From Pseudomonadota bacterium (GTDB taxonomy: Bacteria > Pseudomonadota > Gammaproteobacteria > Eutrophobiales > Eutrophobiaceae), in contig JADFPU010000003.1 of the NCBI GenBank assembly GCA_022562175.1, positions 2,608 through 44,609 of the forward strand: a DNA stretch of 42,002 nucleotides. The letters run 5' to 3'. This document shows, in pieces, positions 14,846 through 28,596 of this stretch. The notes under the pieces are model-generated. The model saw only the letters and a program-made list of their open reading frames with translations, made no database searches and was not told the origin of the DNA. Within the stretch, counting starts at the first letter, position 1, and every line of letters begins with the position of its first letter. Both the position numbers and the translations under genes were made by a program.

Positions 14846-15538
14846 CTATGAGCCCTGAGTCCCGCCCTGCTGCAAAAACATCTTTATCTGTATCGCCATA
14901 CTTCTGCATGCATTGGCCTGTACCCTGGCCAGCAAAGGGATAGGAATGATGATCGCGGGCATAAATGAGGTGCCCTTTGTTTCTGCACTGATCTTCCCGG
15001 ACAGGACCAGTTTATTAAAATCCCAGACACTGGCTTCATAATTAGCTTCATCATCCCAGGTGGCAAAGCCAAAACATCCACCACCACCGGGCCCGATAGC
15101 GCAAGCAACGGAACCACTACTGTCTGTGCGTTCAGTAAAGCCGTCTATCCAGACAAAATAGCGAATCCGAAAATCAGAAAACTTTTTGGCTATCGCCGGA
15201 TTCTCTAGCAATTTCCCCAGGTTTTTGACATCCATCGGTGCAGTACGCGTTTCAAACCAGGGATACATGCTGTCAACAAACAATTTTTCCGGAATGACCT
15301 GGATACCATTTCCACCTTCAGAGAGTGATTTGCCGACACATGAGATGAAATCAAACTCTGTTTCATGATCACTGCTATGGCGACGTCCGAGCACAACGAT
15401 TGACTCTCCCTTGTTGACACGCGCTGTCGGGGCTTCACGATACTGGTCGATGACGGTAGTGCTTTTACAGCCGGCTATAAGCAGGACAGACATAAGCAGG
15501 GAGAAAATAACAAAAAGATTGTTAGAGCAGTAACGCAT
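14846..15538 (-). CDS. Putative lipoprotein of unknown function (last gene of envelope cluster)
   Basis: Start at MRYCSNN (15538); lipobox LLIAGCKSTT; ORF track extends to 15580 but would overlap the preceding gene. Confidence 0.7.
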   Translation of the reverse strand: MRYCSNNLFVIFSLLMSVLLIAGCKSTTVIDQYREAPTARVNKGESIVVLGRRHSSDHETEFDFISCVGKSLSEGGNGIQVIPEKLFVDSMYPWFETRTAPMDVKNLGKLLENPAIAKKFSDFRIRYFVWIDGFTERTDSSGSVACAIGPGGGGCFGFATWDDEANYEASVWDFNKLVLSGKISAETKGTSFMPAIIIPIPLLARVQANACRSMAIQIKMFLQQGGTQGS

Positions 15539-15551
15539 TGTTGAACCTCTG

Positions 15552-16223
15552 TCAGCAGTTGCTGACTGCATAGTTTTCACATTCGCCGATAGTATCCGCC
15601 AACCATTGCTTTATCTCTATGACATTGCCAAAACCCAGTGCCAGTTTTGCGCCGACATCACGCAGCGCCACTTCAATTGCCGCTTGTAAGCCTGCGCTGC
15701 GATTTTTGAGAAATTCAACCGAACTTTTTCCATAGGCTGTCAGCGGCCAATCGGCGATGAGGCTGCCATCAGGGCTGTATAGCTGGATATTATATTTTAT
15801 CCACACCTCATAAAGTCCGGATTGGGTCTCCCTGGGCAAGGCGAATTGCATTTCTTCTATGTGCGGTGCTAAAACGGCATCGACTTTGGAGATATTAGCA
15901 GATAAATCAATAGACGTGACATGTTGCACCTGTTTGAACATGGAGGGTAGCACCTGATCAAACAGGGCAACCTGGGATGAGCCACTCTCAATCGTCCAGT
16001 TGGGGCGGTCTTCAGAATTCTCACGGTAGACATGATGGCTGAACTGCTCATCATAATAAACGCCTATGTTGAGAGGAATTTGATTGATCAGTGGCGCCGG
16101 TACTTCGGAGGTGACCTTGATTGCCAGGGATTGAGTGCAACCAGAGCTGAATAATAACAGCAGGATAAAGAATATGAGCAGAGCTCTATGGCTGCCTGTG
16201 GTTAATGGATTTGATGTGTTCAT
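15552..16223 (-). CDS. Putative lipoprotein of unknown function
   Basis: 223 aa; lipobox LFSSGCTQS; KVTSEVPAPLINQIPLNIGVYYDEQF. Confidence 0.75.
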   Translation of the reverse strand: MNTSNPLTTGSHRALLIFFILLLLFSSGCTQSLAIKVTSEVPAPLINQIPLNIGVYYDEQFSHHVYRENSEDRPNWTIESGSSQVALFDQVLPSMFKQVQHVTSIDLSANISKVDAVLAPHIEEMQFALPRETQSGLYEVWIKYNIQLYSPDGSLIADWPLTAYGKSSVEFLKNRSAGLQAAIEVALRDVGAKLALGFGNVIEIKQWLADTIGECENYAVSNC

Positions 16224-16246: not shown

Positions 16247-17242
16247 TTACCGATAATCATTAAGCCCGACAAACGTGCCGCCATTACGATGGGTAAGTTC
16301 GCGCATTAATGTCGCAAAACGTTCCCCGGTAAATTGTAATTGGCGCGGGTTAGCAAACTGTACCGGAAAGCCGACCGCATGGATACGCACTCTTGGCTTG
16401 CCATTGGCATCCTTGGGGTTAATGCGTTCAACAGTATCGACAACTTCCTTGATAGAGCGTCCGGTGAATTCATCGCCGAACACATATAGACTTATCTTTT
16501 TGTCCACGCTGTAAAATGTACGGATTGCGCGGGTTATGCCTTCTACCGGGCTACTGTTACTGAATGGATTCCAGCTTCGCAGTCGATTGATAATGACCCT
16601 GCGCCGGCCCGGTGTGTCGGGCATCCATTTGCCCCGGTACCTGGAAAACATGTAATCACCCATATCGTTTAAAATCTGTATGCCTTTTACCCGCGGGTAG
16701 ACATCCAGGATTGTAATCAGCTGCTTGATCATTTTATTCCAGCTATATTGAAACATACTGCCGGAGGTATCAATGATAAATATAATGTATTCACTATCGA
16801 CCGGGATGCCACCTATGAAATCAGTTTTTTGTTCCTCCCGCTGGCTAAGCAGACGCTGCATCTCTTCGCTAAGTTGTTGCAATGCCAGTTCTAATTCGCC
16901 TTTGATGATAGTATTGACAGATGAGTCCTCTGCGAGTCCGGCATAGCGAACTTGTACATTGGCCAGTTCACGTTGCAGTTTGGCGACCTTTTCATCCCAG
17001 ATTGACAGTTGTTCATGTCTGGCATTTAAATCGCGATTAAGTACTTTTGCTTCGCCACGGATTTGAAACAGCTGGGCCTGCAATTGTTTGACAATACCAT
17101 CAAGCGGTTCTACAGATGCCTCAAGAACGGCTGGTACACCGGTCTTGGCTATCATCAGTAATAATATGATGGCGCCAAAGCCACAGGTAATCACATCAAG
17201 AAACGATAGACCGAAAGCCTCGTTTTCGCGACGCTTCTTCAT
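16247..17242 (-). CDS. VWA-domain protein with N-terminal single TM helix (FLDVITCGFGAIILLLMI)
   Basis: 331 aa; coiled coil after the TM; MIDAS-like FIIDTSGSM; 4-nt overlap with the upstream VWA gene. Confidence 0.88.
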   Translation of the reverse strand: MKKRRENEAFGLSFLDVITCGFGAIILLLMIAKTGVPAVLEASVEPLDGIVKQLQAQLFQIRGEAKVLNRDLNARHEQLSIWDEKVAKLQRELANVQVRYAGLAEDSSVNTIIKGELELALQQLSEEMQRLLSQREEQKTDFIGGIPVDSEYIIFIIDTSGSMFQYSWNKMIKQLITILDVYPRVKGIQILNDMGDYMFSRYRGKWMPDTPGRRRVIINRLRSWNPFSNSSPVEGITRAIRTFYSVDKKISLYVFGDEFTGRSIKEVVDTVERINPKDANGKPRVRIHAVGFPVQFANPRQLQFTGERFATLMRELTHRNGGTFVGLNDYR

Positions 17243-18333
17243 GGCCAGTCTTCGGTGGGGCTCATGAATGCGCCCCGGGTCAACTGCGCTAACCGCCAGA
17301 AGGCAGAGGCGGCCATAGGGTCTCCTTCCATCGGCGACAATATGATATTGACCGGAACACCCTGGGGCAGTTTGTTGAGTGCCTGTTCAAAAAGTTGCAG
17401 GCGCTGTTTGCCGGTGACAGTTGTACCGCGGGGTGGCTTACGGCCCTGGGTAGGCAGGCCATCAGTGAGCAGGTATATATTGTCGGGTAGCGGCCGCAGC
17501 TTACTGGCATAGTCAAAGGCTGTTGCCAGATTGGTGCCCCCTGCCGGGATCACCTCTTTCAATTTTTCAATCGCGCCGTTTAATTGTTGCAAATCCTTAA
17601 CCTCTAGCCATTGTCCGCGGGTATTTGCCAATACGGATTTTGTCTCGGTATTGAAAGTATATATCTGATACTGACTATCGACAGGAAATCGTGTGCTGAT
17701 CCAGTCTACTGTCTGCAGGGCCTGTTGCCATTTGCGTGAATTAAGCCTTTGTTTGCCGGTCATATTACGGCGCCGGATAATGTTGACTATGGTTTTGTCC
17801 AACATGCTTGCCGACACATCCAGCAGGACTAATATTCTTTTGCCGCCGAGTTTCAAACCGGTCAGATATTCCCGGTTGCCTTCACCGACAAAGCTGCGTG
17901 TATCCTTGCCCGTGTTTTGGGTCTCTTTCTCAAGGCGTTGTTTCTGTGCCGCAAGTTTTTTCAGATCGGCCTTGAGTTTTTCCATATCTGCATCCTGGTT
18001 GCTATTAGCCAGCGCTTCCGTGTTACCGGCAACCTCCCTGATTTCGTCCATAATGCGGCGTGCCAGGCCCTTTGCGATCGCTGTCTGGTCATCAATATCG
18101 GAAACTGTATTGTGAAGTTTGGCGAGATTGTCTTTGCCCTGCAAAATCTCTTCTTCTAACAGACTGACTTCCGAGCTGAGATCAGGGGTCGTGTTTACTA
18201 CCGGCACATATGCATCAACATTGTGTTTGATGATCAGAAACAGCAATACCACAGCACCGAATCCACAGGACATGATGTCCAGAAAGGCCAGACTGAAGGC
18301 GGAAAATTCTCGTCGCCTACGGGCCATTGTCAT
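17239..18333 (-). CDS. VWA-domain protein with N-terminal single TM helix (FLDIMSCGFGAVVLLFLI)
   Basis: 364 aa; complete-looking MIDAS (LLDVSASM, GGTNLATAFD, LLTDGLPTQG). Confidence 0.9.
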   Translation of the reverse strand: MTMARRRREFSAFSLAFLDIMSCGFGAVVLLFLIIKHNVDAYVPVVNTTPDLSSEVSLLEEEILQGKDNLAKLHNTVSDIDDQTAIAKGLARRIMDEIREVAGNTEALANSNQDADMEKLKADLKKLAAQKQRLEKETQNTGKDTRSFVGEGNREYLTGLKLGGKRILVLLDVSASMLDKTIVNIIRRRNMTGKQRLNSRKWQQALQTVDWISTRFPVDSQYQIYTFNTETKSVLANTRGQWLEVKDLQQLNGAIEKLKEVIPAGGTNLATAFDYASKLRPLPDNIYLLTDGLPTQGRKPPRGTTVTGKQRLQLFEQALNKLPQGVPVNIILSPMEGDPMAASAFWRLAQLTRGAFMSPTEDWP

Positions 18334-19645
18334 CCAGCACGCTTATAAATTTATACGTCACGCTTGAATCCCGAAAATTCATTGTATCGCCGGCTTGCAC
18401 AGGTGTTTTGCTGTTTAACAGCTGGCCATTTATAAAGGCCTGAAGTTGCCCTGCAGGTGTTATTACGGGTTGATGGTTATTCAGCATCACACAGCCAGCT
18501 GTTGTTTGACCCTTTGACATTTCGGGAGCACCGGTGCCAGACAGATATAAAGGCGTATTTCCTATCGGGTACGCCTGGTCTTCGTAGAGCACATGTGTGA
18601 CGGTGGTTTTTGCTGGCCTGGTGGAGGCCTCGCGTTGCCCGGGAATTTTTGTGGTGCAGGACACAGTCGGGTTTTTGCTGGCGGGAAGTGTGGTAATAAA
18701 GCTCAGGGAAGGGCCCGCTGTACGTATTTGTTGTGTGTATTGCTGACAGCCCAAAAACACAGCATCGACATCCAGTGTTTTATATTCAGGTAAAACGTCC
18801 GCCAGACAGGGTAAGGCGGCCATACGATCACTGAGTAGACAGCTTAAGGAAGGTGAAATGTGTTGAGCGATTCTCTGATAGATGGTCTGCAGTGCATGCG
18901 ACAAAACATGCCGATGTAGCTTTGCCTGGTGAAGGTTCTGCTTGAACTGGATCTCTAGTAAGACTTCCTTATTTTCATGCAGGGATTGCAGGCAACGCGG
19001 TAACTGATCATACAAAGCCTGTTCTGTTTCGGCATGATGCAAGGGGTCAAAACGTGATTGCTGGATGAATAGATCTGCGATCAAGTTGGCACAGGCTGTA
19101 TAGATATGACTGAGCCCTGTTTCATCGATTATTTCAACTGATTGTCGGCTGATTTCATCCTTCACCTGTAGTTGTGTGATGACAGTCTGGTGAAGATGTA
19201 TATCAATGTGCTGATAGTTACCGCTATCGATTATTGCTGCGGTACTCGCGATAGCGGAATCCACCAGACCTATGGCTGTAAACGGACTGGCTTCAGCCAT
19301 GCCAAGTAATAGCGATAATTGCTCCGTGGTGTAATTTCCAGGAACGGCAAATAGTATCTCTTCAGGTTTACCTGCCTGTTCATATAGGGAAAGTAAATGG
19401 GCAAACGCCAGGTCTGCATGATGTCTGTATTGTTTTGCAGGGTTCTGCAAGGCATCCTGGCTAAGTTTATTCCAGAATTGATTGTATGTTTGCCGTGGGT
19501 TCAGGTGCGCCAGTTTGAGTGCCTGTTCGCCAAGATAGAGTTTTTCATTTTTAATGACAGCATAGCCAGGGCTGCGCAAAACGATTTCCGTGCCCTTTGC
19601 TACACGGATCTCGCTGTCATTTAATTCGATTATGCATAATGACAT
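18317..19645 (-). CDS. Actin/Hsp70-fold-like protein with C-terminal FHA-like module
   Basis: 442 aa; N-terminus MSLCIIELNDSEIRVAKG... and ILFAVPGNYTTEQLSLLLGMAEASPFTAIGLVDSAIASTAAI resemble Hsp70/actin-type ATPase lobes; C-terminus INGQLLNSKTPVQAGDTMNFRDSSVTYKF is FHA-like. Confidence 0.6.
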   Translation of the reverse strand: MSLCIIELNDSEIRVAKGTEIVLRSPGYAVIKNEKLYLGEQALKLAHLNPRQTYNQFWNKLSQDALQNPAKQYRHHADLAFAHLLSLYEQAGKPEEILFAVPGNYTTEQLSLLLGMAEASPFTAIGLVDSAIASTAAIIDSGNYQHIDIHLHQTVITQLQVKDEISRQSVEIIDETGLSHIYTACANLIADLFIQQSRFDPLHHAETEQALYDQLPRCLQSLHENKEVLLEIQFKQNLHQAKLHRHVLSHALQTIYQRIAQHISPSLSCLLSDRMAALPCLADVLPEYKTLDVDAVFLGCQQYTQQIRTAGPSLSFITTLPASKNPTVSCTTKIPGQREASTRPAKTTVTHVLYEDQAYPIGNTPLYLSGTGAPEMSKGQTTAGCVMLNNHQPVITPAGQLQAFINGQLLNSKTPVQAGDTMNFRDSSVTYKFISVLDDNGP

Positions 19646-19656
19646 TTTTTACTCCA

Positions 19657-20454
19657 TCAACGGACTTGCAAGTGCCGGATCAGGTTCACATCGCAATAAC
19701 TTTGTGCATCAAGTACCAGGCGATCCTGTAGTAATTGTAGTTGATGCATCAAAAACATGATGATGATACTGATTATCAGTGCGATAAAGGTTGAGTTAAA
19801 GGCAATGCCCAGACTGACAGTTACCCCGACAATATCGCCTTCTACTGCACGGTGGGCTTGCCCCAGCGCCTCGCCAATACCGCGCACCGTGCCAATAAAA
19901 CCTATCGAGGGAATGGCCCAGATGAGATAGCGGATCATGGATAGTTCCGAGTCGAGTCGATCCGATTCTGTGTCGCAGACATCTTTCACCGCAGTTGAGA
20001 CGTTCTGTATATTCTGTGTGGAACCAAAACGCTGCAAGGCGGTGAGTAATGCGCGGGGTAGAAGGTATTCCCTTTCCTCTTCCGGTAGTGCTTGAAGTGG
20101 CCGGGAATATTTGCGTGTATCTTCCGGCAGAATGCTGGTGCCCTCAGCTACCTCCAGCAGGGACTGTTTGAGTAATTTTCGCTCATGTAATGCAAACTTT
20201 CCCTTTAATCCAATAATAGCCATGGCCCAGAGTGCCAGGATAAAACAGGCTTCCTGTTCATAATCTTTCACCACAATGTATACGGAACGTTTTATTACAG
20301 CCGTCTCGCCAGCGTCTTGAATTGCCTGTCGCTCCTGCAGGATTATCTCGGCCTTGGGACGGATAATGGTAACGTATATAGCATGGACAAATATCAGCGC
20401 CAGGAATAAAGAAAACAGCTGATAGATAAAATCAGAGACAGGATTGTGTTTCAT
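19657..20454 (-). CDS. MotA/TolQ/ExbB proton channel family protein
   Basis: 265 aa; MIRYLIWAIPSIGFIGTVRGIGEALGQAHRAVEGDIVGVTVSLGIAFNSTFIALIISIIIMFLMHQLQ is characteristic of the TolQ/ExbB TM2-TM3 region. Confidence 0.9.
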   Translation of the reverse strand: MKHNPVSDFIYQLFSLFLALIFVHAIYVTIIRPKAEIILQERQAIQDAGETAVIKRSVYIVVKDYEQEACFILALWAMAIIGLKGKFALHERKLLKQSLLEVAEGTSILPEDTRKYSRPLQALPEEEREYLLPRALLTALQRFGSTQNIQNVSTAVKDVCDTESDRLDSELSMIRYLIWAIPSIGFIGTVRGIGEALGQAHRAVEGDIVGVTVSLGIAFNSTFIALIISIIIMFLMHQLQLLQDRLVLDAQSYCDVNLIRHLQVR

Positions 20455-20803: not shown

Positions 20804-22894
20804 TCACTCCAGGTAACGTGCGATCCTGAAGCCTACGTCATCACGGGCATCATTGCCGTAATCACGATAGGACAGGCGCAACTCAGTAATCGAACCATGT
20901 GCCCAGCTTGATCCCTTGATAACATGATGCTGTCCGGATGCCGGTCCCAGCAATGCTGATTCGGACTGTTTGCCCTGGCCGATGGTAATATCGTAATAAT
21001 CATGTACCCATTCCGATACATTGCCGCCCATATCGAAAATACCTTTACGGTCAGCAGGAAAACTCCCGACCGGCGCCGTGACCACAAAGCCATCATTGTA
21101 TCCATGGATGATCCTGCCTAACAGGTCTGCCGCAGAGTCATCTGCATAATTGCCATTTTTGGTCGGCGGCGGCAGGCTTTCACCCCAGGGGAACTTCAAT
21201 TGCTGTTGATTGGGCTGCACCCTGGCCACCCAAGCCCATTCCGCCTCGCTGGGCAGACGGTAGCCGGTGGCCTTGTGCCTGAATCCAACCACCTTATTAT
21301 CCTTTACTATATAGAAAGGCGGTAATTTCTCGCGCTTACTGAGCCAGTTACAATAAAGCGCCGCCTGTTCCCAGGTCAGTTTGACCACGGGATGACGGTT
21401 ATCGTTCAGTTGATTGCCTTGCACGTCGCCGGATGAATGAGATCGGTCGAATGCATGGTATTCGGCATTTGTGATTTCATTCAAGGACAGGTAAAACGCC
21501 CGGCTTAGATTAACTTCTCTCAACGTTTCATTGGCTCGACGTCCGGCCTCACGGCGTGACGCTCCCATGATCACGGATGTGGGGTGGAAAAGTTTTAGTA
21601 TTTGCCCGGCAGAGCTCTTGATAATGGCTTTGACGGATTCCTGTCTGGCTTGTCTCAAGGTTTTCAGACTGACAGTAACTTGTTGAGCGATGCCTGCCCG
21701 TGGCGTCACAGTGGTCTGGTAAGTTACGTAGCCTTGCTTGCGTATTTCAATGCGATGGGGTTTAGTGGATAGCGGCAAGATTTGTTTGGCAAGACCTCGC
21801 AGTTTGCCATCGACATACAGTTCAGCGTCAGCAGGTATGCTGTTAAACTCTATTGGCGACAGTTCGGCCTGCAAGTTTACGCGCAGACGTTGTTTGTCAC
21901 CGGACTTCACTTTGAGTTTGCGATGGCTCTGCTGATAGCCTTGTTTAAAAAAACGAATATCAAAAGTCTTGTCCGGCGCGACTGCAATCTCAATGGGTGT
22001 CTGTCCTTTATATTCACCATTAATAGTAATATTTGCACTGGATGGCCTGGTCTCCAGGAAGATGACAGCATCGGCAAGAGCCAGTTCTATTTCAGGTATG
22101 CTAAATGGCTGGTTGGCCGTCACCATGATTTTCTTCTGCCAGCTTTTGTAACCAGACAGTTTTATCCTGACCTCATGCTCACCCTGCAGGATTTCTGTAG
22201 TGAGGGGAGTTTGCCCGACTATATTCTCATCAATATAAACATCCGCGCCTGCCGGTTGTGATGCAAAGCTCAGCTCTGCCCAGGCAGGGATCAATTCGAC
22301 AACAAGCGTCTGTTCATGTCCCAGCCCTTCAATTTCTATACTTGTCGTAAACGGCAGGTATCGCTCTGCATCAATACGTAACGCATGTTCTCCATGTGCA
22401 ATATCACGTATTGTTGTGGGCGTTTTACCCCGGAGTTCACCATCTATCCTTATTTCAGCAGTCGTTGCCGGTGAAGAGCTGATGTTTAGATGGCCTGGCA
22501 GGCGCTGTAACGTGAAAGTATAATGCTGGTTCTGCTGGTCGTTTACGGACAGCAATTGCTTTAACGGATAATAACCCGGCGCCTCAATAGAAAGCTGGTA
22601 ATCACCTGATCGGATTAAAAACCTGTCAGCGAGTTTTAGTTTAATGCCACCCTGTATTTCAATATGGTTGCTTGCAGGGTCGACTTCTATGTAGACCGAT
22701 CTTGCGCTAAAAATGAACCAGACTATCGCGCTGCAAAGCACCAGGATGATGCTTATTAATATACTGCCGATACGGATCCGTCTGCCTGAATCAGGTGCAC
22801 GGTCTGTTGCCGGTGTAAAGGCGGTTGGCTTAATAACGGTCTTTGGTTGCAATGCTGCAGCGTCGACAGGTTGATTGTCATGATTATTATTCAT
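20804..22894 (-). CDS. Membrane-anchored multi-PEGA protein with C-terminal SUMF1/FGE-like domain
   Basis: 696 aa; N-terminal TM (SILISIILVLCSAIVWFIF); about five PEGA-like repeats (e.g. ADVYIDENIVGQTPLTTEILQGEHEVRIKLSGY); FGE-like LSRAFYLSLNEITNAEYHAF ... GYRLPSEAEWAWVAR ... DMGGNVSEWVHDYY ... DDVGFRIAR. Confidence 0.88.
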   Translation of the reverse strand: MNNNHDNQPVDAAALQPKTVIKPTAFTPATDRAPDSGRRIRIGSILISIILVLCSAIVWFIFSARSVYIEVDPASNHIEIQGGIKLKLADRFLIRSGDYQLSIEAPGYYPLKQLLSVNDQQNQHYTFTLQRLPGHLNISSSPATTAEIRIDGELRGKTPTTIRDIAHGEHALRIDAERYLPFTTSIEIEGLGHEQTLVVELIPAWAELSFASQPAGADVYIDENIVGQTPLTTEILQGEHEVRIKLSGYKSWQKKIMVTANQPFSIPEIELALADAVIFLETRPSSANITINGEYKGQTPIEIAVAPDKTFDIRFFKQGYQQSHRKLKVKSGDKQRLRVNLQAELSPIEFNSIPADAELYVDGKLRGLAKQILPLSTKPHRIEIRKQGYVTYQTTVTPRAGIAQQVTVSLKTLRQARQESVKAIIKSSAGQILKLFHPTSVIMGASRREAGRRANETLREVNLSRAFYLSLNEITNAEYHAFDRSHSSGDVQGNQLNDNRHPVVKLTWEQAALYCNWLSKREKLPPFYIVKDNKVVGFRHKATGYRLPSEAEWAWVARVQPNQQQLKFPWGESLPPPTKNGNYADDSAADLLGRIIHGYNDGFVVTAPVGSFPADRKGIFDMGGNVSEWVHDYYDITIGQGKQSESALLGPASGQHHVIKGSSWAHGSITELRLSYRDYGNDARDDVGFRIARYLE

Positions 22895-22902
22895 CTGCTG
22901 TG

Positions 22903-24462
22903 CTATCTTTTCAGGGCGATTTTATCATCACATTGAACAATAACGGACTGTGAAGGCTTGTTCGATGAGACAGTGAATTCAACTCGCACATCACGATATC
23001 CCTGCCTGCTGCCGACAGCAGTATAACGGCCGGGCGCAAGAGGCAGTTGCTTGCTCTTAAAATGGCCGAGTTTGCCAACTTTATATAAAGTGACCTCGGT
23101 CAGGTCATTTGACAGGATTTTTACCGGCACAGGGGTACTGGCTTCAATCAATAATGAACTAAGGAATGCGGTTTGTTTTTTAAGCACCGGCCCCGGCTTG
23201 GTAACGCTCTGTGCCTGACGTTGCAGGTTGACAGCCTCGTTATAGACGGCCTTATTGGACAGGCGTTGTGGTTGAGCAAAGGTTGATAGCAGGCGTCTAT
23301 GCAAACTGGCACGTTGTAAGCTATATTGTTTGCCCTGCCGGGCTGACGCCAGGTTGGCATCCAGCGTCAGGGCTTCATCGTATTTAGCTACAGCTTGCAG
23401 CCATTGTTCGGATTTTTCGAAGTCGCTGGCCTGTTCAAGCAAGGTTTTGATTCTCTGTGAAGTGATACGTTGTGCTGTCTGACTCAGCGCGTTGCGTGCC
23501 TCAGTCGCGGCGGGTTTGATTCTGATCGCCTGGGTAAATGCTTTGTGTGCCTGATTAAGTTCATTTTTCTCAAGCGCCGAATAGCCTCCGGACATGGACC
23601 GGGTAAAGTCACGATCAACGATCGCCTGGTTGACCTGCTTTAGTTTTTCTGTTGCCTGTTCAGCGTCCAGATCCAGATCCAGCACCTGCTGATAAACCTT
23701 TTTTGCTTGCAGAAGCTGACTATTTTGCAGCAATATATCTGCCTGTGCGATCAAGGCAAGGACTTCATCCAGTGTGCCGGCGCGCTTATTGCCTTTTATC
23801 GCAGACTGATTACCGGGTTTGAGTATCAGGGCATGCTGAAATGCCTCAGCCGCTGCGGCAGAGTCACCGTGTTCAAGTGCTTGTCGGCCTTTCTGTATAG
23901 CTGCATCAAATAATTTGTCGACACTTTGTAAAAGCCCGTTAAATGTTTCCAGAGCTTGTTGATAGTGAGACAGTGCCTGTGCAAAGTCGCGCTGCCGATA
24001 AGCGGCGTCGCCAGTTGTCGCTAGTTGTTGAGCTTGCGAAAATGTTTGTTCTGCCCATAGTTTGACATTTATTATCTGCAGTTCATCCTGGGCTTGCAGC
24101 ATTTGAAAGAGTATGTCTTGTGTGTCCTTACGCAACCTGGCTTGCTGGGCTTCATCCCAGGGGGAAGATGGGGCCTGTTTTCTTACAGTGGTTGTCTGTG
24201 CCGTACTGCCGGGCGATTGCTTGTCTGTAGATTGTTGTGTTACTGCAATGCTTGGGGTACTCACCCAATTGGGTAACACAAAGATAACACCTAATACAAA
24301 TACCAGCAGAATAATCAGACCCGGCCAAAGCAAGGGATGGATGTGTGGCCGGCGCCTGGAGGAAGCGGTTTTATCTGCTGCGCGCTGCGGCGTAAAGCTG
24401 ATATCCGCAGGTTTGATCCGTGTGTGTTGCGGTGCTGGTTTGTCCTGGTGGTTTTTATCCAT
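22903..24462 (-). CDS. TPR-repeat protein with single TM and C-terminal PEGA-like segment
   Basis: 519 aa; TM LLWPGLIILLVFVLGVIFVL; several TPRs (FAQALSHYQQALETFNGLL, LNQAHKAFTQAIRIKPAATEARNAL, WLQAVAKYDEALTLDANLASAR). Confidence 0.82.
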   Translation of the reverse strand: MDKNHQDKPAPQHTRIKPADISFTPQRAADKTASSRRRPHIHPLLWPGLIILLVFVLGVIFVLPNWVSTPSIAVTQQSTDKQSPGSTAQTTTVRKQAPSSPWDEAQQARLRKDTQDILFQMLQAQDELQIINVKLWAEQTFSQAQQLATTGDAAYRQRDFAQALSHYQQALETFNGLLQSVDKLFDAAIQKGRQALEHGDSAAAAEAFQHALILKPGNQSAIKGNKRAGTLDEVLALIAQADILLQNSQLLQAKKVYQQVLDLDLDAEQATEKLKQVNQAIVDRDFTRSMSGGYSALEKNELNQAHKAFTQAIRIKPAATEARNALSQTAQRITSQRIKTLLEQASDFEKSEQWLQAVAKYDEALTLDANLASARQGKQYSLQRASLHRRLLSTFAQPQRLSNKAVYNEAVNLQRQAQSVTKPGPVLKKQTAFLSSLLIEASTPVPVKILSNDLTEVTLYKVGKLGHFKSKQLPLAPGRYTAVGSRQGYRDVRVEFTVSSNKPSQSVIVQCDDKIALKR

Positions 24463-24601: not shown

Positions 24602-25792
24602 TTAATGGGGTATAGGGGCTGCCTGCTGTCCGGTTTCCGTCAGGTACATGTCGCGGAGGATCTGTCGCCATTGTGTGTATTGATCATCGACCGTGCCTGA
24701 TAATGTCACTGTTCGGTTTTCTAATGAGATAGTGTGAGGATAGATTTCTGCATCCAGTGAAGAACCGAGTTCTTCAAGCGCTTCGGCATGGATCTCGGCT
24801 TCTTTGCCCTTGTTAATTCCACTCATCACAGCGGTAGCACCGGCGCCGATCCCCACAACACCTGCCGTCCGGGCAACCGCGCTGTCACTGCCCTGCGCCA
24901 GAATGCCGACCAGCACAGCAAGTGCGCCACCAACAATCCGGTTCATGGATTGCTGTTTTATTTCACGCAGTGAGATGGTCTCATGATAGCTTTCGCTGCG
25001 CCAGGCCCGGTAGGGTAGTTCCATTTGCCGGACAAATGAGCCGTAATAATCCTGCAAGGTATCAACAAACATATAATCACGTTCGCGTATTCGCCGGACG
25101 CGCAGCAGGGTGGGATCATTTTCAGCGGGCAGGCGTTTTATTGTATAACGGCCGCGGCCATCGACCTGCAAGTACTCATCAAACACCTCGGGTGCGAATC
25201 GCCGGGCAAATTTTAATTCAGTAATCGTGCGTATTGTCTTCACATCCTCAGGTTTGAGATGTTTTCGAAAGACCAGCATATCGTTGGCGATACGGTTGTA
25301 GATACCCTGGAAAGGTTCCTGCCTGCTGCCACGACGGTCATAGGCATATTTGCTGACGACTTCCTGGTAGTTTCTTGTAAACCAGACCTTGCCAGACGCA
25401 TCTTTTACCGACACCTTGAGTTCCAGCGTCTCACCGTCGGATTTCAGGATCTCACCATCCACCCACAAGTCCATTTCGCTTTGTTGATCCGGAATGACTC
25501 TAACGACCCCCCAGTTGCCGGTCATCTGTAGTGTTTCTGTCAGTTTATAGGGCACATAGCGAGCCTCGGCTTTGCGTATCTCGAGAAACACGCCAACCTG
25601 TTGCGCACTGATCTCATCGATACCCGGGTGAAAGATGCCTACACCCACATCGAGTAACTGATGTTCCGGAATTTGTGTCGGCTCTTGTATTACCGGTGTG
25701 TGCTCAGTAGTTTTAACGGTGGTGGTACTGCAGCCGACAGCCAGCAGGCAAATCACCGTGTAAGATAAAACTCTCAAAATTGTTAATCTCAT
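24602..25792 (-). CDS. Putative lipoprotein with BON-like C-terminal segment
   Basis: 396 aa; lipobox LLAVGCSTTT; C-terminus HTISLENRTVTLSGTVDDQYTQWRQILRDMY is BON-like. Confidence 0.7.
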   Translation of the reverse strand: MRLTILRVLSYTVICLLAVGCSTTTVKTTEHTPVIQEPTQIPEHQLLDVGVGIFHPGIDEISAQQVGVFLEIRKAEARYVPYKLTETLQMTGNWGVVRVIPDQQSEMDLWVDGEILKSDGETLELKVSVKDASGKVWFTRNYQEVVSKYAYDRRGSRQEPFQGIYNRIANDMLVFRKHLKPEDVKTIRTITELKFARRFAPEVFDEYLQVDGRGRYTIKRLPAENDPTLLRVRRIRERDYMFVDTLQDYYGSFVRQMELPYRAWRSESYHETISLREIKQQSMNRIVGGALAVLVGILAQGSDSAVARTAGVVGIGAGATAVMSGINKGKEAEIHAEALEELGSSLDAEIYPHTISLENRTVTLSGTVDDQYTQWRQILRDMYLTETGQQAAPIPH

Positions 25793-26784
25793 CGTCTACT
25801 GATCACCCCTTTGGTGTAATTGCGGTATTCGTTCCACAATTTTTCCCGTAATACCGGATCTGTTTCTTTCGTGGCAGCCTCTCTGAGTTGCTTCGCCACA
25901 ATATCATCATCTCTGCCGTCAGGTATATCAGAGGGTATTGTGGCTTGGGTGTTAGCGTGTTCAAATTCACCGCTACGGTTGCTGGCCGGTGCATTCGGCA
26001 ACTGGCCACTTCCGGAAGCGTTGCCAGCACGCTTGGCCATAGTTGTTAACAGTGGCGCGGCCTGTGTTTCGTCTGCCCCGTCAAAACCAGCACCTCCCAC
26101 AGCATAGACTCCGGATTGGCTGCCCAGTTCATTATCCTTCTGTGTCAAGTCGTCTCGTTTGCTCAATATCATGCCGTCGAACTGAGACAGCTTTTCATTG
26201 AACTGGCTTTCCAGCAGCATGACGCGTTCAGCTTCAGTCATCGCTGCCGAGCTGCCTGAGCCAGTGCCATCGCTATAAACCGGCTCAGCCGCCAAGCCGG
26301 CCTGTCCTGGCTGGCCACCGACGATAATAAGTTGAACGCCGCCATCGTCGCTGCCTTGAGGCGTTGGCCCACCGGCATCGCCCCGGGATTGCATTTGTTT
26401 ATCAAATTCATCAAGCGCTGCGGACAGCACCTCATCCTCTGATCCCTGACTAGAAGGCTCACCAGCAGATTGCGCATTGCTGGCATCCTGTGATGTCGAA
26501 TCTTGAGAGGCCTCTGTCTGACTTTGCGTCTGCAAGAGTTCAGGACTCTGCGCAGTACCTTCAGTCTGACTCGATAGTTGCTGCTGTGCGGACGCTGATG
26601 GATTGGCTTGTGACGCACTCGACTCGCTGCTGGTTGAGGATGGCTCAGCAGTCGACGGTGATGTGCTGGAAGAACTGGATGATGAGGGCGGCGGTGGCGG
26701 GGTTTTACAGGCAACCGACAACAACAGTATCGCCGTCACAGTGAGCATGTATAAAGTATTTTTAATCCGGTATGGTTGACGCAT
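25789..26784 (-). CDS. Putative lipoprotein with Ser/Gln-rich low-complexity linker
   Basis: Start at MRQPYRIKN (26784); lipobox LLSVACKTPP, then PPPPPSSSSSSSTSPSTAEPSSTSSESSASQANPSASAQQQ...; ATGA-type 4-nt overlap with the downstream gene. Confidence 0.72.
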   Translation of the reverse strand: MRQPYRIKNTLYMLTVTAILLLSVACKTPPPPPSSSSSSSTSPSTAEPSSTSSESSASQANPSASAQQQLSSQTEGTAQSPELLQTQSQTEASQDSTSQDASNAQSAGEPSSQGSEDEVLSAALDEFDKQMQSRGDAGGPTPQGSDDGGVQLIIVGGQPGQAGLAAEPVYSDGTGSGSSAAMTEAERVMLLESQFNEKLSQFDGMILSKRDDLTQKDNELGSQSGVYAVGGAGFDGADETQAAPLLTTMAKRAGNASGSGQLPNAPASNRSGEFEHANTQATIPSDIPDGRDDDIVAKQLREAATKETDPVLREKLWNEYRNYTKGVISRR

Positions 26785-26794
26785 GTCTGGTCTC

Positions 26795-28114
26795 TCATTC
26801 ATCATATATATAACGTATACTAACATCGGTGGTTTCTACCGGTTTGCCATTCTCAAGACGGGGCCGGAATCGCGTTAATTTTACACTCTTTTTAGCCCTG
26901 CGCTGCAGTGACGCATCATCAGCAGGATCCGATTCAATGATCTGTATATTCCTTGCACGTCCTGTTTTAGTGACATTGAAGGAGACCAGGACGGACGGCT
27001 TATTTTTATTATCTTGCTTGTTTTTGTATGGCAAGGGTAACTGTATGGCCGGTAATGTTCTGGGTCGTGCGAACAGCTTGTCGATATCCAGCGTGTCCGT
27101 TTGATGTTCACTCAGGAATGCATAAGCCTGTTGGTAATTCATCATCGCAGTAGTTCTTTTGTTGAAAAGCTGATGCCAGTCACCCAGATGGATCAATGCT
27201 AATGCATGCGAGTCAGAGGGTAGTTGCGGGTTGCTTTCATAAATATCAATAATCCGTGTCATGGCACGTTTGCCAGTCCGGTAGCTATTTGCTAATAAGT
27301 TTTGCTGCACTATCTCCTGTTCGCTCAAACGCCGTCGATGCCGGTTGCCAGTAAAACTTGAACGTATATCGTCACTATTTTCAAGGTTGCTTGCATAGGC
27401 GGCCATTTGGTAATTGATTAAGGCAATGGCGTAAAGCGGGTCGATTAAACGCGGATCGAACTGACCGTAATGTGTTTCGATGATAGCCACGGCATTTTTG
27501 TATAGCGCATTAGCGTCCAGCAGATGTCTGAACAGTAATTCGTCGGATTGCAACTGATAGGCATTGATGTGCCAACGTCCAAGTCTATCGATAATCGGTA
27601 GTAAACGCGGATCTTCATTGCCGTAGTTGCGAAGATGCACCCAATAGAGGTAATGATAATTCTTATCCAGCGCCTGCCAGTCTGATAATGCCGTATTTGT
27701 CTCGATAATGAGTTCCAGGATAGGCAGTTGACTGGTATTGTGCAGGCCATTGTTGATGCGGTTGATATGCAGCGATCGCTTTAGAACCTCAATGGCCTGC
27801 TCGTGTTGTCCCTGGTTGCGATACACCAGACCCAGACCCAGCAGCTGCTCGCTCAGTTGATCATGATAGACACCGTGGGTTCTCTGCAGCGCGTCTATCG
27901 TTTGTTGATATTGCGATATGGATCGTCTGGCTTCAGCTGTAATATTGCCGTCCGGGTCAGGTTCGGCAGTCTGTTGCAACGACGCGTCGCTAGCGGAGAC
28001 TGCGGTTGTATCTGCGGATCCGGTTTTTTGTGGAGGCATCTCAGCCGCGTAGGCGGCAAGGCCTGAGATGCATAGCAAACCAGGCAATATGTAAAGGATC
28101 CGATATTTATTCAT
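26795..28114 (-). CDS. TPR protein with TonB-C-like C-terminal domain
   Basis: Signal peptide MNKYRILYILPGLLCISGLAAYA; TPR-like LGLVYRNQGQHEQAIEVLKRSLHI; C-terminus VLVSFNVTKTGRARNIQIIESDPADDASLQRRAKKSVKLTRFRPRLENGKPVETTDVSIRYIYDE resembles TonB C-terminal domains. Confidence 0.8.
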   Translation of the reverse strand: MNKYRILYILPGLLCISGLAAYAAEMPPQKTGSADTTAVSASDASLQQTAEPDPDGNITAEARRSISQYQQTIDALQRTHGVYHDQLSEQLLGLGLVYRNQGQHEQAIEVLKRSLHINRINNGLHNTSQLPILELIIETNTALSDWQALDKNYHYLYWVHLRNYGNEDPRLLPIIDRLGRWHINAYQLQSDELLFRHLLDANALYKNAVAIIETHYGQFDPRLIDPLYAIALINYQMAAYASNLENSDDIRSSFTGNRHRRRLSEQEIVQQNLLANSYRTGKRAMTRIIDIYESNPQLPSDSHALALIHLGDWHQLFNKRTTAMMNYQQAYAFLSEHQTDTLDIDKLFARPRTLPAIQLPLPYKNKQDNKNKPSVLVSFNVTKTGRARNIQIIESDPADDASLQRRAKKSVKLTRFRPRLENGKPVETTDVSIRYIYDE

Positions 28115-28596
28115 AAACACCATTATCTCAACTTAGCGGCAATCTTGTAATAGTTGCAGCGATGCCTGGGTCGAAATCCACTTTTTTGCTCTTTTTTGCA
28201 TTATTATCCCTCAGTTGGCCCCGAATTTGAGGATTATAGACCGGCTAAAAAGTCCGCGCTTACAACTGATATTGCTGCAGCACACTACATATCAGGCAAG
28301 CACTTGTATTCCGGTAATATATTTGGATTCATCTCTTCAAAAATTGTTCCTCAATATTCGAGCCATGTGCCTGTTATTTCTTTATTCAGCCTGATTTTCA
28401 GGCAGAAAGCGTTTCTATCGGTATAGGCTAAATTCAGGCGCGCATGTAATAATGGGGCAAACTTGTTGCTTCTACTAGAAATAATAGCTAATAAACAGAC
28501 AAATGCTGTTGAGATTTCTCATGCAAAAATGATATATCAGCCGGCATAATCCACACGCAAACAGAAGTGCTTATTTTCCTAACCATGGGACAAGAT

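Follow-up and report, generated by a model that had tools for sequence, protein, structure and literature searches.

The MotB, ExbD and TolR axles of ion-driven motors are homodimers, and GldK works with GldLM, another 5:2 motor. In the TolQR complex, T145 and T178 of TolQ form a polar ring that hydrogen-bonds to D23 of TolR (PMC12583513). Heterologous pairs of transmembrane (TM)-anchored vWA proteins, tightly linked to tolQ and found with no tolR or exbD, were described in June 2025 (Mol Biol Evol, msaf138; PMC12204202, Fig. 4c,d). The members of this TPH-vWA family, sampled as homologues of an Idiomarina vWA protein, occur mainly in Proteobacteria and Verrucomicrobia and carry a conserved TM Asp, which AF3 models put inside the pentamer at the Thr ring (PMC12204202). 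The interpretation of such a pair as a motor axle is already in print and is not new here; no experimental test of a vWA/TolQ-like motor was found in a literature search.

The locus described here fits the TPH-vWA/TolQ-like family in every feature tested, and nothing sets it apart: it has tandem heterologous vWA genes, co-occurrence with tolQ in the absence of tolR/exbD, a TM Asp, and no SHLS motif. What is added beyond msaf138 is the size of the sample in which the key residues are invariant, a matched copy number that includes unlinked cases, an invariant MIDAS, a conserved set of PEGA-FGE, TPR and lipoprotein neighbours, and a helix sequence that appears modestly MotB-like rather than ExbD-like. 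The window, that is, the whole stretch of DNA analyzed (42,002 nucleotides), contains the features listed in Table 1.

Table 1. Features of the VWA/TolQ-like operon in the window, in order of transcription.
Feature	Positions	Strand	Description
TPR/TonB_C protein	26795-28123	minus	TPR protein with C-terminal TonB_C domain and signal-like N-terminus; heads the operon here
Predicted lipoprotein	25789-26826	minus	345 aa, Ser-rich; conserved neighbour
Predicted lipoprotein	24602-25792	minus	396 aa; conserved neighbour
TPR protein	22903-24462	minus	Predicted inner-membrane anchor; conserved neighbour
PEGA-FGE protein	20804-22894	minus	PEGA repeats and FGE-sulfatase-like domain, predicted inner-membrane anchor; conserved neighbour
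TolQ/ExbB-like channel subunit	19657-20454	minus	Four hydrophobic helices; same operon as the VWA pair
TolQ-like T189 codon	19888-19890		Ring threonine
TolQ-like T222 codon	19789-19791		Ring threonine
442-aa protein	18317-19645	minus	No recognised domain; gene separates TolQ-like from VWA1
VWA1	17239-18333	minus	364 aa; basic N-terminus, one TM helix (Asp19), coiled coil, predicted periplasmic VWA head
VWA1 TM helix	18226-18285	minus	Residues 17-36, FLDIMSCGFGAVVLLFLIIK
VWA1 Asp19 codon	18277-18279	minus	In the TM helix
VWA1 MIDAS			Complete: D172, S174, S176, T267, D291
VWA2	16247-17242	minus	331 aa; VWA1 paralogue, basic N-terminus, TM helix (Asp16), long coiled coil, VWA fold
VWA2 TM helix	17147-17206	minus	Residues 13-32, SFLDVITCGFGAIILLLMIA
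VWA2 Asp16 codon	17195-17197	minus	In the TM helix
VWA2 MIDAS			Candidate residues: D158, S160, S162, S230, D257
Predicted lipoprotein	15552-16223	minus	223 aa; downstream of VWA2, kept in close relatives
Predicted lipoprotein	14846-15580	minus	244 aa; downstream of VWA2, kept in close relatives

A preliminary description of this DNA reported two tandem VWA open reading frames at 16247-18333; both were recovered at these positions on the minus strand, the TM segments that it quoted match the two reading frames exactly, and both proteins follow the order that it gave, from a basic N-terminus through a helix (Asp at the helix start) and a coiled coil to the VWA head. The two genes overlap by 4 bases, and their products are paralogues (BLASTP 62 bits, E=2e-15) that align over the basic stretch, the helix, the coiled coil and the start of the VWA head. 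VWA1 scores above the Pfam VWA_2 cut-off, at 37.8 bits. The VWA2 sequence falls below every VWA cut-off in profile searches; VWA_2 is matched at E<=1 by 41 of 48 VWA2 homologues, the AlphaFold2 model of VWA2 has a VWA fold (pLDDT mostly 80-94 in the VWA part), and a structure search with this model returned many VWA matches in the PDB (E ~1e-5).

The channel subunit encoded upstream is a member of PF01618 (3e-13, 50 bits vs. a cut-off of 22.9), and the top structure matches of its model are ExbB/TolQ (Foldseek probability 1.00, E ~1e-3). It has one N-terminal TM helix more than TolQ. An ungapped alignment of the family profile to residues 104-211 of E. coli TolQ (PDB 8odt) equates T189 with TolQ T145 and T222 with TolQ T178. 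The PF01618 match, together with a profile search that found no ExbD/TolR anywhere on the contig, bears out the earlier statement that the operon encodes a TolQ-type channel and is missing ExbD/TolR. The genome as a whole carries four genes of PF01618 and two of ExbD; both ExbD genes are on other contigs, each adjoining its own TolQ/ExbB, and MotB_plug was not found in the genome by profile search. Among more than 230 homologous neighbourhoods a single ExbD helix was seen, ~9 kb from VWA1 on the opposite strand, and the operon holds no alternative candidate axle gene besides the VWA pair.

A second TolQ-like motor lacking ExbD is encoded on contig C256 of the same genome (L279:4850-6202), where the gene for a 248-aa PF01618 protein is followed by that for a 197-aa protein that lacks an ExbD domain and whose single TM helix, DPFTDLLFNALLGFTFLFLIAIMFM, carries an Asp at the start. 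A membrane-protein gene and the gene for a VWA-FHA protein come next, and upstream lies one for a YkuD L,D-transpeptidase; two relatives (L280, L281) have the same set.

Conservation was measured in 236 complete homologous triads of VWA1, VWA2 and TolQ-like protein (~128 effective at 80% identity). Asp19 of VWA1 and Asp16 of VWA2 are each D in 236/236, and the helix-Asp pattern is therefore more than chance; the preliminary description had staked its reading on conservation of this residue, and the residue is kept without exception in each paralogue. T189 and T222 of the TolQ-like protein are likewise Thr in every triad (236/236), and the MIDAS of both VWA proteins is nearly invariant, with the DxSxS motif and the distal Asp invariant. 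Mean-field DCA of the same triads (Neff ~128) placed 23-35% of top pairs in TM3/TM4 of the TolQ-like protein vs. 19% expected, but the leading pairs lie off the expected membrane depth and the TM3/TM4 excess is probably due to relatedness. Two further elements of the TolQ-like protein are nearly invariant in the triads: His24 in the extra N-terminal helix (235/236), and the motif D64-x-E66-Q67-E68 ahead of the second helix.

The VWA genes and the TolQ-like gene are distributed together. Both VWA genes occur in 31 of the 53 genomes of the family to which this bacterium belongs; the TolQ-like gene is present in all 31, and no genome has the VWA genes alone (Fisher 1e-12 for co-occurrence over the 53 genomes, a value that ignores relatedness). 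Two more genomes of the family have a TolQ-like match only, one being a fragmented assembly and the other a marginal hit. Matches were found in 33 of 369 gammaproteobacterial genomes sampled across the class (~9%) and in 15 of 399 sampled across the phylum, including one family outside Gammaproteobacteria. A scan of species genomes returned at least 569 relatives, of which the best 80 were used, nearly all from records named Gammaproteobacteria; relatives include the named, cultured genera Microbulbifer, Haliea, and Pseudoalteromonas.

At 272 of the 276 loci read (some genomes are covered twice), VWA1 is paired in tandem with VWA2, the genes overlapping or nearly so, and the two of the four unpaired loci that were checked (L170, L180) lie at a locus end or adjoin a broken VWA1. 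All three genes are present at 252 of the 276 loci, most exceptions being locus or contig ends. Apparent VWA pairs without a TolQ-like gene in some relatives were rejected, as these are mostly contig or locus ends and others have the gene rearranged or elsewhere in the genome: in L402 and L405 the operon is rearranged, with the TolQ-like gene and one of the lipoprotein genes nearby on the opposite strand, and in one relative the TolQ-like gene is on a different contig from the VWA pair. Copy number is matched as well: in L378, L441, and L442 there is an additional, divergent VWA pair, accompanied by a divergent TolQ-like gene of its own, and two full TolQ-like genes are present in each of the three genomes that have two VWA pairs.

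The preliminary description likened the VWA helix to that of ExbD. Pfam ExbD (PF02472) matched neither VWA1 nor VWA2 at E<=1, profile searches found no MotB_plug or OmpA-like domain in either protein, and the periplasmic part of both is VWA, not an ExbD domain; judged by their sequences, neither VWA protein is a member of the ExbD or MotB family. The helices were compared by a column-shuffling test and by a scan of a non-redundant set of ~1,200 TM segments drawn from the homologous neighbourhoods. Against the MotB helix (represented by only 9 MotB sequences) the best register was Asp-on-Asp, with p of 0.018 and 0.003; this match is about as good as that of ExbD on MotB, and the TolQ-like helices gave none. 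The top 13 of the ~1,200 segments under the MotB matrix included 8 of VWA type, or 4 with the Asp column masked. Against ExbD, p was 0.13-0.6 and the best rank among the ~1,200 segments was 67, in a register other than Asp-on-Asp. Homology to the ExbD helix was rejected, since nothing rose above chance in two versions of the profile comparison or in the segment scan. The VWA helix thus appears modestly closer to MotB than to ExbD, a likeness that stems in part from the Asp itself. Because the profile comparisons found no above-chance match, the likeness to ExbD is positional only.

The gene order lipoprotein-lipoprotein-TPR-PEGA-FGE-TolQ-like-(442-aa)-VWA1-VWA2-lipoprotein-lipoprotein is largely kept in 20 relatives, of which the three most distant are without the 442-aa gene and without the last two lipoprotein genes. 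The position of the TPR/TonB_C gene varies in relatives, where it is found elsewhere or on the opposite strand. No match to the 442-aa protein was found in Pfam, NCBIfam, or the PDB. The PEGA-FGE protein scores 100 bits with GldK/PorK (type IX secretion), below the curated cut-off of 350 bits; this match probably reflects the common FGE-like domain. Under the Lol rule, a residue other than Asp after the lipobox Cys directs a lipoprotein to the outer membrane; in the four lipoproteins of the operon this residue is Lys, Ser, or Thr, which suggests that all four are outer-membrane proteins. With predicted outer-membrane lipoproteins and predicted inner-membrane neighbours encoded alongside it, the motor seems to belong to a set that spans both membranes, and the presence of PEGA-FGE, TPR and four lipoprotein genes in the operon suggests a trans-envelope machine.

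VWA1 and VWA2 most likely serve as the axle, or non-channel, subunits of an ion-driven motor of the 5:2 type with a TolQ-like pentameric ring. This role, which the preliminary description had proposed, is supported by the strict co-occurrence with the TolQ-like gene, the matched copy number, the absence of ExbD/TolR, and the invariance of the Asp and of the Thr pair. Published AF3 models of family members (PMC12204202) lead us to place the VWA helices in the pore, where one helix from each VWA protein would sit and the Asp at its start would accept a proton at the threonine ring (T189, T222). We infer the proton as the ion, rotation as the motion, and the neighbours as the load: proton passage would turn the TolQ-like ring around the VWA axle, and the coiled coils would pass torque or a conformational change to the two predicted metal-binding periplasmic VWA heads, which would in turn work on the PEGA-FGE and TPR proteins encoded in the same operon and on the outer-membrane lipoproteins. 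Given the obligate pairing, the axle is probably a VWA1/VWA2 heterodimer. The fuller picture, an obligate heterodimeric axle (5:1:1) in which two different metal-binding VWA heads would rotate or swing in the periplasm and work on PEGA-FGE proteins and outer-membrane lipoproteins, is put forward tentatively, with slightly more doubt than belief.

A variant compatible with the axle role is that VWA1 and VWA2 form separate homodimeric axles, and hence two alternative motors built on the same TolQ-like protein. It has the precedent of MotB, ExbD, and TolR, no sequence feature forces a heterodimer, and mean-field DCA between VWA1 and VWA2 gave no informative signal; however, the strict tandem of overlapping or near-overlapping genes argues for 1:1 synthesis and for a shared complex, and we regard separate homodimers as unlikely, though a serious contender. 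The VWA proteins could also attach externally to the TolQ-like ring in the manner of TonB/TolA, leaving the pore to another protein such as ExbD, as has been proposed for a separate SHLS-motif vWA family (PMC12204202). The two ExbD-type proteins of the same genome could supply that partner, but each of their genes adjoins an ExbB/TolQ gene of its own, there is no SHLS pattern and neither VWA TM helix contains a His, the invariant residue is instead the Asp typical of pore helices, and two VWA genes per TolQ-like gene better fit a dimeric axle; outside binding is accordingly improbable. Least probable of all is an adhesin or chaperone pair that merely shares the operon and keeps the Asp for helix packing or insertion, for although many unrelated envelope proteins contain VWA domains and the coiled coil by itself might dimerise this pair, the Asp and the Thr pair are both invariant, presence and copy number track the TolQ-like gene even when it is unlinked, and the operon offers no other axle candidate.

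The present sample, which is independent, strengthens the recent prediction that a VWA pair can replace the axle of a 5:2 motor. If the axle reading is true, ion-driven torque would serve some envelope task in ~9% of the gammaproteobacterial genomes sampled (33/369). Two different axle chains would, moreover, make the two Asp sites separately mutable, which homodimeric motors do not allow.

If true, a 5:1:1 VWA motor would stand as another main class of motor alongside MotAB, Exb/Tol, and GldLM, as defined by axle cargo. The system described here shares with ExbB-ExbD and TolQ-TolR a channel that has the TolQ/ExbB fold and keeps the two ring threonines, and a single-pass partner with Asp at the helix start, but differs in the extra N-terminal TM helix of the channel and in having two different partners, which are without a PF02472 match and bear a coiled coil and a VWA head in place of the ExbD domain. 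With MotA-MotB (and ZorA-ZorB) it shares the Asp-start helix [FY]-x-D-[FLIV]-[IM]-[ST] and a channel subunit with four TM helices, whereas it differs from MotA-MotB in having no OmpA-like peptidoglycan-binding domain and no MotB_plug, and in a channel that is nearer to TolQ/ExbB than to MotA by structure search. The GldL-GldM operon with GldK likewise encodes a trans-envelope motor together with a protein of the FGE fold; here, in contrast, no GldM-type axle is seen and the GldK match stays under its cut-off.
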